A stretch of 34,744 bases of DNA from an uncultured Patescibacteria group bacterium (lineage in GTDB: Bacteria > Patescibacteriota > Minisyncoccia > Phycocordibacterales > UBA12088): contig CAMYLP010000008.1 in NCBI GenBank assembly GCA_947259245.1, forward strand, positions 1-34,744. The letters are read 5' to 3'. The notes under the pieces were generated by a model, which was given only the letters and a program-made list of their open reading frames with translations, did no database searches and had not been told where the DNA came from. Shown one piece after another: positions 5,091 to 9,612 of this stretch. Within the stretch, counting starts at the first letter, position 1. Each line of letters opens with the position of its first letter. The position numbers were made by a program, and so were the translations under genes.

Positions 5091-5990
5091 TTATCCTCGC
5101 GCTGTCTTTATTTCTTCTGCGACATTTGGCGGAACGACCGCATAGTGGTCGAACTCCATCACCATTTGTCCACGACCTTCGGTCATAGAGCGGAGTGTCG
5201 TCGTGTAGCCGAACATTTCTGCAAGTGGCACCATGGCGTGGATGGTCTGCATGTCGGTACCACGCGGTTCCATACCTTCGATAGCTCCGCGCTTACTTGA
5301 GAGGTGGCCGTTGATGTCACCCATGAACTGTTCCGGCACGACAACTTCCACCTTCATGATGGGCTCAAGGAGGACTGCATTTGCTTTCTTTGCGGCATCC
5401 TGGAAGGCCTGAGAACCAGCTATCTTGTATGCGATCTCACTCGAGTCAACATCGTGGTACGAACCATCAAAGAGGTTAACCGATACATCAACGAGTTTGA
5501 AGCCTGCGACGATACCACGGTCCATGGCTTCCTTGATACCCTTCATGACAGCGGGAATGAACTCTTGCGGGATAACACCTCCCTTGATGTTGTTTATGAA
5601 TTCGAAGTGATCTTCACGTGTAGTATTTTTGGCGATCTTTTTCCCCTCTACAACCTCCTCAAGCGGCTTGATATTGATCTTCACGTGACCGTACTGACCG
5701 CGGCCACCTGTCTGCTTGATGTACTTGCACTCGGCATCCGCTGGCTTCTGGATGGTCTCACGGTACGCTACTTGTGGTCGGCCGATGTTTGCTTCTACGT
5801 TAAACTCACGCTTCATCCGGTCGACGAGAATGTCGAGATGAAGCTCACCCATACCACTGATGATCGTCTCGTTGGTTTCTTCATCACTCTCTACGCGGAA
5901 TGTTGGATCCTCGTCTGCAAGCTTCTTCAGTGCAATGCCAAGCTTTTCCTGGTCTGCTTTGGTCTTCGGCTCGATACGGACCGCAACCAC
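5091..5990 (-). CDS. fusA: Elongation factor G, C-terminal part (separated by frameshift)
   Basis: This open frame carries the end of EF-G domain II and domains III-V. Its first usable start is the GTG at 5990, but EF-G homology in this frame continues upstream to about 6107 ([16 protein letters not shown], then [18 protein letters not shown]). Conserved landmarks are [31 protein letters not shown], the domain IV stretch [11 protein letters not shown] and [11 protein letters not shown], and in domain V the run [13 protein letters not shown]. Alone it cannot bind GTP. It would need to be joined to the upstream part (6074-7189) to make EF-G, which catalyses ribosomal translocation and, with RRF, ribosome recycling. 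The frame break is described under that part and in the findings. Confidence 0.9.
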
Positions 5991-6073
5991 TGGCTCTGGG
6001 AAGTGAATCTCTTCGAGTACAAGCGGTGCCTTCTCATCACAGAGTGTATGTGATGTTTTCGTATCCTTGAGGC

Positions 6074-7189
6074 CTACAGCCGCTGCAATTTCGCCCGCGT
6101 ATACCTCTTCTTGGTGTTCGTGGTGGTGTTGTATACATAGCTCCCGGCTTTGAGGCTACCCGAGTACACACGGAAAAAGGTCAGGGTGCCTACGAATGGG
6201 TCTGTTTGGATCTTGAAAGCGAGTGCACAGAATGGTTCGTCGTCTGACGGCTTGCGCTCCTCTTCCTCCTCGGTCTTTGGATTCGTACCATGTACCGGCG
6301 GCAAGTCGACTGGACTTGGCAGGTAGTCAACGACAGCGTCGAGTACCGGCTGGACACCTTTGTTCTTTAGTGCCGAGCCGCAGTAGACGGGGAATATCTC
6401 ATTGGCGATGACGGCTTTGCGAAGCGTTTTCTGAAGGTCCTCGAGCGATGGTTCGTTACCTTCAAGGTACGCATTCATCAGCTCATCGTCATGCTCGACG
6501 ATACGCTCGATGAGCTCTCCTCGAAACTTCTCGACATCCTCTTTGAGGTTGTCGGGGACATCGTCGGTGACCTTCACATCCATACCCATCTGTCCTTCGT
6601 AGCGGTATGCTTTTCGCGTGAGGAGGTCAACCTGTCCTTCATGAGCATCTTCCTCACCGATAGGTATCTGCATGCGCACGCCTCTCTTCGAGAGTCGGTC
6701 AAGTATGGACTGGTAGCTACGCTCAAACGAAGCACCAGTACGGTCAAGTTTGTTCACAAAACATAGGCGTGGGACATTGGCATCGTCTGCGTAGCGCCAG
6801 TTGGTCTCACTCTGCGGCTCCACACCCGCGACACCGTCAAAGACCACGATAGCACCGTCCAAGACACGCATAGAACGCTGCACCTCAGCGGTGAAGTCGA
6901 TATGTCCTGGTGTGTCAATTATGTTGAAGCGGGTCTTGTTCTCGTCCTTCGTTCCATCCTCATCGATCTTTGTCCAGAAACAGGTGATAGCAGCACTTGT
7001 GATAGTAATGCCGCGTTCACGTTCTTGCTCCATCCAGTCGGTTACTGTCTCACCCTCGTGCACCTCACCGATCTTGTGACTCATGCCGGTGTAGAAAAGC
7101 ACGCGCTCTGAGACCGTGGTCTTGCCTGCATCAATGTGTGCAATAATGCCGAAGTTGCGCACCTTCTCTAGTGGATAATCTCTACTCAT
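6074..7189 (-). CDS. fusA: Elongation factor G, N-terminal GTPase part, frame broken in domain II
   Basis: The start is [14 protein letters not shown] at 7189. An in-frame upstream ATG at 7348 is rejected because the promoter and leader lie in between. All GTPase motifs are present: AHIDAGKTT (G1), RGITITSAA (G2), DTPGH (G3), NKLD (G4). Domain II begins normally ([23 protein letters not shown] spans it) but after NTKK the frame runs out of EF-G similarity and stops within about 13 codons. The continuation is in another frame from about 6107. About 17 expected residues, the ERxxRLxRMHANxREEV stretch of other EF-Gs, are missing at the junction (6104-6116). Either the gene is a pseudogene or the assembly is wrong here. 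Confidence 0.92.
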
Positions 7190-7211
7190 ACTGGATGAAA
7201 AAATGATAATA
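7134..7211. repeat. fusA 5'-end repeat, copy A
   Basis: This 78-bp block (first 18-19 codons of fusA plus 22 bases upstream) matches 8070-8147 without gaps, in the same orientation. The differences are mainly at third codon positions. A second block, 7289-7328, covering the hairpin and -10 region, matches 8144-8183. Confidence 0.88.
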
Positions 7212-7296
7212 ACAGCTGCGCTGGTATTAGCTTCTCGGCTCAGAAATATATACTCACTTTGTCTATATATCTCTCGCTCTACGTCGCTAATAAAAA

Positions 7297-7348
7297 AGCG
7301 CCCCGCGCTAATTGCGAACACTATACATTGGTTTGACAATAAACTCAA
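7297..7348 (-). promoter_or_regulatory. fusA promoter with promoter-proximal hairpin
   Basis: On the minus strand: TTGAGT (7343-7348), 17 bases, TATAGT (7320-7325). The expected start is near 7313. Almost at once comes AGCGC-GGG-GCGCT (7297-7309) followed by TTTTTT. This hairpin plus T-run looks like a terminator, but it lies only a few bases into the transcript. The same arrangement, with the same 10-base gap from -10 to hairpin, recurs at the remnant copy (8152-8180). The leader to the ATG is about 124 bases. The start codon has no SD, only CATCCAGT preceded by a T-run. Confidence 0.65.
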
Positions 7349-7391: not shown

Positions 7392-7991
7392 ATGCCGAAG
7401 AGAACCGAAATGAACGGTGACATATCCGAAGTCTTTTCAACCGCACCGCGCAGTAAACGGAAGGAGCCCGCGGTGTTTCCACTGCTCAGTCCTCGGGCCG
7501 TGTTTCACAATGATGCAGAGTCCTACGTCGGCATCGTGGTGCATGAACAGTGTTTGAGCGACCTTGAACGTCTGGACCATGAGCACTACAGGCGTTGGCA
7601 TGAACAGTGCGACATCTACCTTGTACTCACCACACGGAGACAGCTGCAGACAGGGGAATCTCTGTTCAGAGAATTTCCACACTTCCGCGTGTCCGAAAAG
7701 AACAAGACACAGTCACTGTGTATCGAAAAGGAGTGGGAGCTCTTGCGTCGTCACCAGTCACCTCAAACTGAAGCTGACGTGCTCGTGTCTGGTTTGAACC
7801 TGCAACGAACGTTCTTTGATCCCTTTTCAAAAGCACAAAAGGAGCTGCTCCAGGTACTGAAGCTCGTTGAACTCTACGGTGAGAACCGGCAGCTGCAGAT
7901 AGCCCCGGCCTGGAGTGACGTATCGAGAGAGGACATGCTTGCACTGTTCGATGCGCTCGATCGCGCCATTCCAAGCTCATTATTGAGTTGA
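7392..7991 (+). CDS. Hypothetical protein (199 aa) between the fusA copies
   Basis: A strong SD (AAGGAGGAG) lies a few bases before the ATG. A consensus TTGACA at 7333-7338 lies within the fusA promoter on the opposite strand, so the two divergent promoters overlap, although its -10 box is poor. No family is recognised. The protein is soluble and charged. It opens with a basic segment (PRSKRKEP), then mixed alpha/beta (SYVGIVVHEQCLSDLERLD, CDIYLVLTTRRQLQ), and ends in a helical region (FSKAQKELLQVLKLVELYG). A terminator follows at 8001-8024. It sits exactly between the direct repeats of the fusA 5' end, which suggests it arrived with, or is bounded by, that duplication. Confidence 0.6.
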   Translation: MPKRTEMNGDISEVFSTAPRSKRKEPAVFPLLSPRAVFHNDAESYVGIVVHEQCLSDLERLDHEHYRRWHEQCDIYLVLTTRRQLQTGESLFREFPHFRVSEKNKTQSLCIEKEWELLRRHQSPQTEADVLVSGLNLQRTFFDPFSKAQKELLQVLKLVELYGENRQLQIAPAWSDVSREDMLALFDALDRAIPSSLLS

Positions 7992-8000
7992 AACAACCAA

Positions 8001-8024
8001 ACACCCCGGATCGAACCGGGGTGT
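8001..8024. terminator. Bidirectional terminator
   Basis: A 9-bp stem (ACACCCCGG / CCGGGGTGT, loop ATCGAA) lies 10 bases after the stop of the 199-aa gene. On the plus strand TATCAT follows. On the minus strand TTGGTTGTTT follows, which would also stop transcription coming through the fusA remnant. Confidence 0.75.
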
Positions 8025-8059
8025 TATCATAATAACGATCGCTCCTCCGGAGCGTCTTG

Positions 8060-8125
8060 TTACCAGGCGATGTGGGCAATGATGCCAAAATTACGTACCT
8101 TTTCTAGTGGAAAATCTCTACTCAT
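8060..8125 (-). pseudogene. Truncated second fusA: first 19 codons, then stop
   Basis: The frame reads [19 protein letters not shown] and then AW-stop, where intact EF-G continues into DAGKTT. It therefore ends inside the G1 P-loop region. Against fusA at 7189 it has one conservative replacement (Tyr5 to Phe) and about eight silent third-position changes in 19 codons. This pattern implies it diverged while still encoding EF-G. Its promoter, hairpin and T-run are also retained. Downstream on the minus strand are a small hairpin (CGCTCC/GGAGCG) and the terminator at 8001-8024. It could be the relic of a second fusA or of the original str-operon copy. A translated leader peptide is less likely. 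Confidence 0.8.
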
Positions 8126-8147
8126 ACCGGATGAAAAAATGATAATA
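8070..8147. repeat. fusA 5'-end repeat, copy B
   Basis: Counterpart of 7134-7211, direct orientation, offset 936 bp. Relative to copy A, the leader between the T-run and the ATG is about 80 bases shorter. The promoter-side block continues to about 8183, and a short matching stretch (ACAATAAA) follows after an indel. Confidence 0.88.
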
Positions 8148-8151
8148 AAAA

Positions 8152-8202
8152 AGCGCCCCGCGCTAAGTGGCCATACTATACATGGATTCTAGCGTTTAAC
8201 AA
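8152..8202 (-). promoter_or_regulatory. Promoter and hairpin of the fusA remnant
   Basis: On the minus strand: TTGTTA (8197-8202), 16 bases, TATAGT (8175-8180), then AGCGC-GGG-GCGCT (8152-8164) and a T-run. This duplicates the fusA leader apart from the weaker -35 region. Confidence 0.55.
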
Positions 8203-8249: not shown

Positions 8250-8462
8250 TCACGTTGCAGGTATGCGAGGGATGTCGATCGGGAGATTGAACGTATACTT
8301 CATCGTCTCGAGCGCGCGAAAGAACACTTCAGCCTCTCTCCGTGTGTAGCGTTCGGGCCAGACGCCTTGCTGGTTGTCGACGACTATGAGAAACGTCTCA
8401 ATCGGTGGATCTTCACCAAGCATTTCCCGTGTGATCTTCACGGTTGTCTCCGGACTATCCAT
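8250..8462 (-). CDS. Hypothetical small protein (70 aa)
   Basis: The start is MDSPETTVKITREMLG at 8462, set by GAGGAGGAG about six bases upstream. The frame is open further up but only as low-complexity shadow. The protein is acidic at the front and has a strand (IETFLIVVDNQQGVW) followed by a helix (RREAEVFFRALETMKYTF). It ends in a Pro/Ile-rich tail. No family is recognised. It is one of three orphan genes between rpsG and fusA and diverges from the alpha-CTD-like gene. Confidence 0.55.
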   Translation of the reverse strand: MDSPETTVKITREMLGEDPPIETFLIVVDNQQGVWPERYTRREAEVFFRALETMKYTFNLPIDIPRIPAT

Positions 8463-8549
8463 AACAACTCCTCCTCTGCTGAGCCAGTCCCACCCTACAC
8501 CTGAATGGTGCCTGTTACAACAGTGTTTTGGACGGCTTTGTTTGTCTGA

Positions 8550-8577
8550 TTGACAGAATACGCGAGATGTGTTTAAG
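8550..8577 (+). promoter_or_regulatory. Promoter of the alpha-CTD-like gene
   Basis: Consensus TTGACA (8550-8555), 16 bases, TTTAAG (8572-8577). The leader is about 38 bases and ends in a strong SD before the ATG at 8622. Confidence 0.55.
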
Positions 8578-8621
8578 TGCTCGCAGGCAAACAAACATTG
8601 CTAACTCAGGAGGATATAAGA

Positions 8622-9059
8622 ATGGTCCACGCCGACAAGTATGCAGCAATATCTCAGGTGTCTGAACTTCTTTTTGAGCAAGGAGAGCGCGGGCAACTTG
8701 CCCTGCGCGACGTACTGGAAACACTCAACCAATCCGATTTGGTTGGACTGTTGTGTGAGTCACTCGCGCAAATCCATGCCCTGCACAAACAGTATGGCCA
8801 GCACGGGATAGATCAAGAACTCTTCTCCAGGCCTTTTGAGGATGTGCTATCTGTTACCGCACGCACCGCCAACTGCCTTAAGGCAGAAGGGATTCGTTGG
8901 CTCGGCGACGTGGTGCGACAAAATCAGGTTGCATTGCTAAAGACGCCAAATCTGGGTAAAAAGAGCCTTCGCGAGCTGACGGATGAGCTCGAGAGACATG
9001 GTCTGCAGCTGGGAATGAAACTAGTGGGTTGGAAACGTCCTACAGAGGGCTCGCACTAG
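8622..9059 (+). CDS. Stand-alone RNA polymerase alpha C-terminal-domain-like protein
   Basis: The protein is 145 aa, starting at MVHADKY. CAGGAGG with seven bases to the ATG decides this start over an in-frame ATG at 8577. Residues 72-133 match the alpha-CTD: LSVTARTANCLKAEGI, then LLKTPNLGKKSLREL, then GLQLGMKL. Residues that in E. coli alpha contact the UP element or activators are kept: Arg265 (R81), Asn268 (N84), Gly296 (G112), Lys298 (K114), Ser299 (S115), Glu302 (E118). Relative to E. coli there are two extra residues before R81. The first 70 residues are helical and unlike the alpha-NTD, so it cannot assemble polymerase. It is likely a DNA-binding regulator, inferred from the domain. 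Confidence 0.78.
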   Translation: MVHADKYAAISQVSELLFEQGERGQLALRDVLETLNQSDLVGLLCESLAQIHALHKQYGQHGIDQELFSRPFEDVLSVTARTANCLKAEGIRWLGDVVRQNQVALLKTPNLGKKSLRELTDELERHGLQLGMKLVGWKRPTEGSH

Positions 9060-9141: not shown

Positions 9142-9612
9142 CTACCAAGCGAAGTGCGCGAATGCTCTGTTGGCTTCTGCCATCTTGTGTGTGTCCTCCT
9201 TTTTCTTTACCGCCGCGCCTTCGTTGTTCGCTGCTGCGATGAGCTCTTCTGCATAAAACTTGTGTGCGGGGCCACCGCTTTTACCCCGTGCTGCTGCAAT
9301 GATCCACCTCATCGCGAGTGCTTGGCGGCGCTCGGGGCGCACCTCACGAGGTACCTGATAGTTTGCACCACCGACGCGTCGTGAACGTACCTCGACAGAT
9401 GGGCCGACATTGCGGATAGCCTCTTCGAAAACTTCTAGCGGGTCTTTCCCCTCCTCCTTATTCTTTATCTCGTCGAGTGCACTATACACTACCTTGCGTG
9501 CAGTCTCTTTCTTGCCATCAAGCATAACGTTGTTGATGAACTTTTCCAAACGCTCGCTCTTGTAGCGATGGTCAGGTGCAATGCGGTGCTTTTTCTTGAT
9601 CGGTCGTCGCAT
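9142..9612 (-). CDS. rpsG: 30S ribosomal protein S7
   Basis: The protein is 156 aa, full length for the family. It begins MRRPIKKKHRIAPDHRYKS and keeps the conserved FINNVMLDGKKETA, NVGPSVEVRSRRVGGANYQVP and RRQALAMRWI stretches. S7 binds the 3' major domain of 16S rRNA and nucleates head assembly. It starts eight bases after the rpsL stop with no SD, consistent with coupling. fusA does not follow directly as it does in a standard str operon. A terminator and a ~2-kb block of orphan genes intervene. Confidence 0.97.
   Translation of the reverse strand: MRRPIKKKHRIAPDHRYKSERLEKFINNVMLDGKKETARKVVYSALDEIKNKEEGKDPLEVFEEAIRNVGPSVEVRSRRVGGANYQVPREVRPERRQALAMRWIIAAARGKSGGPAHKFYAEELIAAANNEGAAVKKKEDTHKMAEANRAFAHFAW

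Follow-up and report, generated by a model that had tools for sequence, protein, structure and literature searches.

In the window, the whole stretch of DNA analysed here (an entire contig of 34,744 bases), a short open reading frame between rpsG and fusA is a hybrid in which the first 19 codons of fusA run in frame into the 3' end of rpsG. Judging from its sequence, this stub is probably a hybrid scar left where the rpsG-fusA intervals of two diverged alleles, carrying different cargo genes, were joined. The contig belongs to a 0.95-Mb, 37-contig genome that is 97% complete. On the minus strand of the window the order is rpsL, rpsG, a first interval (interval A), the stub, a second interval (interval B), and the main fusA from 7189 (Table 1). 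The cargo genes of intervals A and B are unrelated, the intervals of congeners likewise differ in cargo, and across the order the rpsG-fusA interval ranges in length from 5 to more than 4,700 nt. In interval A, ORF160 encodes a small protein with an RNA polymerase alpha C-terminal domain; for ORF199 in interval B, no Pfam family scored above the cut-off and no homologue was found among 60 relatives.

Table 1. Features of the rpsG-fusA region, in window coordinates.
Feature	Position	Strand	Basis or remark
rpsL	10031-9621	minus	
rpsG (S7), intact	9142-9612	minus	Ends GCGCACTTCGCTTGGTAG; ORF of 156 aa; compared with congeners
ORF160, RNA polymerase alpha C-terminal-domain-like; interval A cargo	8577-9059	plus	Pfam RNA_pol_A_CTD, E=3.9e-14
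ORF76, no assigned function; interval A cargo	8250-8480	minus	ORF list, Pfam search
Promoter-like site, stub copy (TTGTTA-16-TATAGT)	8175-8202	minus	Arranged as 7320-7348
Leader hairpin, copy 1 (AGCGCGGGGCGCT then TTTTTATT)	8152-8164	minus	Second copy at 7297-7309
Hybrid ORF fusA'::rpsG', 21 codons	8060-8125	minus	ATG at 8125, stop at 8062-8060
fusA codons 1-19 of the stub, silently diverged from main fusA	8069-8125	minus	8 silent changes, 1 replacement
rpsG-like 3' end with flank (ATCGCCTGGTAACAA)	8057-8071	minus	Best match among 105 rpsG tails, 14/15 nt
Pair of hairpins downstream of the hybrid stop codon; the second resembles a terminator (AACACCCCGGTTCGATCCGGGGTGTT TGGTTGTTT)	8000-8054	minus	
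ORF199, orphan gene; interval B cargo	7392-7991	plus	Pfam search and search of relatives
Promoter-like site, main fusA copy (TTGAGT-17-TATAGT)	7320-7348	minus	
Extra leader segment, main fusA copy only	7213-7287 (boundaries approximate)	minus	About 75-85 nt
Main fusA, frameshifted near 6110 (52-nt deletion)	5091-7189	minus	Alignment with five congeners

The stub's first 19 codons (8125-8069) give an ungapped alignment with the corresponding codons of fusA (from 7189), in which 48 of 57 nucleotides are identical, and the codons differ by eight silent changes and a single replacement (Y5F). This bears out the preliminary description, which had noted a second, silently diverged fusA start at this site. 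Its further statement that the start is truncated after 19 codons holds for the fusA part, but the ORF itself has 21 codons and closes with an rpsG-like 3' end rather than a random truncation. The repeat also exceeds the coding part noted earlier, with one block of 79 nt at 89% identity (7134-7212 and 8070-8148) and another of 46 nt at 85% (7288-7333 and 8143-8188), and promoter, leader hairpin, and start region are each present twice in the same arrangement. The two units are not alike along their whole length, as those of a recent tandem duplication would be, and the repeat is limited to promoter, leader, and start. In this genus, fusA leaders (8152-8164 and 7297-7309 in the window, and those of several congeners) carry a short GC hairpin and a T-run (..GCGC..TTTTTTATT) just past the -10 box. 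Among 126 fusA loci, a set enriched for double-start loci through the choice of genomes, an upstream copy of the fusA start peptide was present in 8, the window included, with scores of 50-55. The remaining loci stayed at background (23 or less) and the opposite-strand control at 27 or less, and because the upstream copies form a score class of their own, they are not chance matches.

Past codon 19, the stub reads GCC TGG TAA CAA in frame with the rpsG 3' end, and its protein ends in ..AHIAW and a stop where that of rpsG ends in ..AHFAW and a stop. The typical rpsG end in these bacteria is GCN CAY TTY GCN TGG TAR, and that of one congener (G003), GCCCACTTCGCCTGGTAACAA, is near-identical to the stub's GCCCACATCGCCTGGTAACAA. 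Compared with the best of 105 rpsG tails, the stub end matched at 14 of 15 nt and, over a longer stretch, at 15 of 18 nt; none of 20,000 random window positions equalled this match. From the genome's own rpsG end it differs by silent changes only (TAG/TAA, GCT/GCC, GCG/GCC). Because the rpsG-tail match follows codon 19 and is itself followed by hairpins, the stub reads as fusA' fused in frame to rpsG', and since rpsG normally stands before fusA, a joint in this orientation is the mark of two interval copies having been unequally joined. The sequence GCCCAC[A/T]TCG occurs both around codons 17-19 of fusA and at the rpsG end, giving a microhomology of 9/10 nt at the joint (fusA GCCCACATCG, rpsG GCCCACTTCG). 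The congener G002 (L053) has a palindrome of a different, REP-like kind downstream of rpsG, beyond which the rpsG tail occurs a second time (GCGCATTTTGCCTGGTAA..GCGCATTTCGCTTGGTAA), and a similar REP-like palindrome lies within the fusA leader hairpin of both G002 and G005 (L056).

The fusion was absent from 5 congeners and, in a two-mismatch search of 397 genomes of the order (own genome included), from all 396 others, save one unrelated chance match in G049. Comparison of the rpsG-fusA interval in relatives, proposed as a check in the preliminary description, likewise gave no orthologous conserved leader ORF with the fusion. This lack of conservation speaks against the stub being an old in-lineage duplicate retained to regulate fusA, either as a functional leader ORF or as a small RNA, which we regard as very improbable even though the divergence is silent only, promoter, leader, and terminator are all there, and the truncated starts of other species have frames open as far as the fusA start, the arrangement seen in translational coupling. 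In the window, coupling would be impossible, as the stub's stop lies 870 nt upstream of fusA behind a terminator-like hairpin, with ORF199 on the opposite strand between them. A general nucleotide-level constraint on fusA start codons, which could have kept such a leader similar, was rejected: over 42 independent congener pairs, codon identity was 0.52 at the start and 0.51 further on, and only in genus g121 were the start codons more conserved than expected. Given its promoter-like site and terminator-like hairpin, the stub may still be transcribed into a short RNA (about 165 nt); most likely, however, it is a scar without function.

The truncated and full starts of the window share 9 of 18 codons, and the fusA genes of different congeneric species agree at about 50% of codons; divergence at this species level means that the stub is not a recent copying error. 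When a neutral copy was simulated against a selected one, none of 10,124 runs gave one replacement or fewer among 9 changed codons, and neutral decay of one of the copies is rejected. Two claims of the preliminary description, that the protein was under selection before truncation and that no recent copying error is involved, therefore stand, and its proposal of recombination between two fusA versions fits the divergence of the copies. Less can be kept of its suggestion that a whole second EF-G gene stood here, as the stub ends in an rpsG 3' end and terminator-like hairpins and one joint suffices to make it. The EF-G sequence stops at 19 codons (the N-terminal strand only) with the rpsG-like end next, which makes the stub neither a second EF-G gene nor a pseudogene of one. 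Nor could we uphold the connection drawn between the stub and the broken main fusA, since the deletion is located about 1.1 kb from the gene's start and is possibly an assembly error.

The stub does not require that a complete second EF-G gene once stood here, though one may have. One route through such a gene, a complete tandem copy of rpsG-fusA (or of the str operon) from which everything between fusA codon 19 and the next rpsG end was deleted, would give exactly the same product as the joining of two alleles, and duplicate EF-G genes do exist in the group: G124, of the same order, holds two complete, different fusA genes on separate contigs (C10:1045 and C37:13049). We consider this route unlikely, as it takes one step more than a direct joint and the assembly, with a single match to EF-G domain IV (EFG_IV), holds no further trace of a second EF-G. 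The main fusA lacks 52 nt near 6110 relative to five congeners, resulting in a frameshift, and because a cell without EF-G is not expected to live, this deletion is likely an assembly or strain error. Such an implausible frameshift in the same gene, together with the multi-contig state of the genome and its contamination estimate of 1.4%, also raises the question of whether the intervals of two strains were chained in one contig, and allele-level divergence is what strain mixing would produce. An artefact of this kind is nevertheless quite unlikely, because the overlap at the joint is imperfect and only about 10 nt, too short for usual k-mer assembly, and because genomes from several unrelated projects contain start pairs with similar silent divergence.

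We therefore return to the joining of two alleles. The silent divergence, the outcome of the neutral-copy simulation, and the unrelated cargo suggest that both halves of the stub were functional gene ends until they were joined. The first allele, comprising rpsG, ORF160 and ORF76, a promoter, a leader, and the fusA start, would have been kept as far as fusA codon 19, and this end would have been joined, at the microhomology of about 9/10 nt, to the last rpsG codons of a second allele that runs on through a terminator of its own, ORF199, a promoter, a leader, and the complete fusA. We infer that the second allele was foreign DNA from a related species and that it entered either by unequal crossover or through homology at one end combined with illegitimate joining at the opposite end. 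The collections searched contained no donor genome with the second allele, the nearest genome having about 86% amino acid identity in fusA. Other genomes of the order speak for a joint of this type, as they hold pairs of truncated and full starts with allele-level silent divergence that are absent from their congeners. Against it stand the shortness of the rpsG match (15 nt) and the leader copies, which are closer to each other (95-100% in the core) than third codon positions are and would require constraint on the leader. The window also lacks the palindromic element of most other cases, making the analogy with them partial.

A truncated fusA start of 12-18 codons precedes the full gene in 7 other species at a spacing of 101-195 nt, and was not found in the congeners examined. 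Most of these cases have a hairpin, ACCCC..GGGGC, in the space between the starts, and two (G195; L134=G190) have other hairpins there. The same arrangement of truncated start, element, and full start was found at tkt (L210), mraZ (L211), rpsL (L063), clpP (L246), dnaJ (L213 and L244, the latter a DnaJ without J domain), clpB (L241), glyS (L229), and an unnamed gene (L235). In the J-domain-less DnaJ (L244 1564-2457), the profile match begins at position 68, after MNKDYY. Under an 11-residue criterion applied to 1,226 ORFs in the fetched loci, repeated starts occurred at fusA only; a shorter criterion, whose shuffled control was inflated by homologous starts, added tkt, mraZ, dnaJ, and rpsL. 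Across 17 pairs of truncated and full starts, the window included, 73 codons were identical, 86 differed silently, and 12 carried replacements. The shortest pairs (5-6 codons) are individually weak, and they are credible because of the element beside them. In the other orders of the class, no double starts were found except for a chance match (spacings 99-129 nt).

The stop of the truncated ORF fell within -24 to +22 nt of the full start in all of the first 11 cases with an element or hairpin, compared with 7 of 22 in the other frames (p=1.7e-4), and in three of five later cases compared with 2 of 10 (combined p=1.5e-4); the stop of the window stub, far upstream of fusA, does not share this geometry. 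Relative to two congeners, G195 carries an insert consisting of the hairpin, the leader, and codons 1-13 between native codons 13 and 14. Its truncated copy matches the native start. In its full copy, codons 1-13 are anomalous, with 1 of 12 codons identical where 7.6 would be expected, and the rest is native. A wholesale foreign fusA was considered for the other double-start genomes and rejected, the G195 fusA being native at 92.6-92.8% amino acid identity to congeners. In L137, it is the full copy that looks native, resembling the nearest relative, and the truncated copy resembles a more distant one. Since these two cases are opposite, there is no fixed direction, and a putative one-ended illegitimate joining at a hairpin, aided by homology on the opposite side, could account for either pattern.

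A strict pattern for the element, ACCCC[AG]GTA-N12..45-TACGGGGC[AG], was present in 63 of 397 genomes with up to 20 copies (G055), and its reversed control gave a single match in all 397. A looser pattern with more background detected 3-13 copies in several double-start genomes. Examples of the element (L137 5932-5970, L159, L185, L133, L210, L211, L213, and L246) often lie directly past a truncated gene start, and copies also occur at gene 3' ends and in frame within long ORFs. In L201, L212, and L222 (G195), palindromic elements lie in frame within long ORFs, the same 35-nt sequence appearing in two different genes. In G041 (L248 1420-1640), a tkt (transketolase) start of 17 codons and an element stand ahead of a GAPDH-like gene, whose product we take to be GAPDH, and represent an orphan scar; a second, slightly different element (CTACAGGGCG) lies just upstream. 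At the patterns used, the element was found neither at the stub joint nor elsewhere in the window's own genome, although the congeners G002 and G005 carry 4 and 10 copies. Rfam searches gave no match above the gathering threshold and one match below it, and in the PMC literature, we found no published description of the element or of split gene starts beside it.

As a tentative proposal, this element family may settle just inside the 5' ends of fusA, rpsL, tkt, dnaJ, clpP, clpB, mraZ, and glyS, leaving behind a truncated start (5-18 codons) and a full gene whose own start specifies the same peptide with other codons and is often coupled in translation to the truncated ORF. This would reveal a recurrent, undescribed joining of two alleles of essential genes without harm to the protein, of which the window stub would be an element-free example. 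The window shares the silently diverged truncated and full starts with these loci but not the hairpin between the starts.

In homology-facilitated illegitimate recombination, which can follow natural transformation or conjugation, foreign DNA is taken in through homology at one end and a microhomology or illegitimate joint at the other (PMC3240628). Such an event would leave a resident gene end beside a donor copy, as seems to be the case here; a difference is that the event is inferred here from one genome and that the joint in relatives is usually at a palindromic element. An unequal crossover or tandem duplication scar would similarly join the start of a downstream gene to the end of an upstream one, but the different cargo and species-level divergence indicate that the partners were two alleles rather than sister chromosomes. 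Integrative elements such as SXT/R391 enter the 5' end of a gene, in their case prfC, and supply a replacement start. Like them, the loci described here have a truncated native start on one side and a full gene with a silently different start on the other; unlike them, they have no integrase and no constant crossover site (the breaks follow codons 5-19), and the inserts are about 45-150 nt in relatives and about 0.9 kb in the window. The element of the relatives resembles Rickettsia palindromic elements and REP/MITE repeats in being a short dispersed hairpin that also occurs in frame within coding genes, yet it differs in lying often just past a truncated start, with the full start regenerated downstream.

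Taken alone, the window stub is of moderate interest, and the recurrent split gene starts with a palindrome are the more novel lead, at lower certainty. They would, if rightly read, raise the question of how an insertion can restore a gene start with its amino acids preserved and its codons changed. If the joining of two alleles is the correct reading, the stub would record, in readable form, an allele replacement that affected a core translation gene in a bacterium with a reduced genome. Gene exchange in Patescibacteria is hard to observe directly, and split gene starts together with a dispersed hairpin would, if our reading is true, provide a sequence signature by which such events could be counted across the group.
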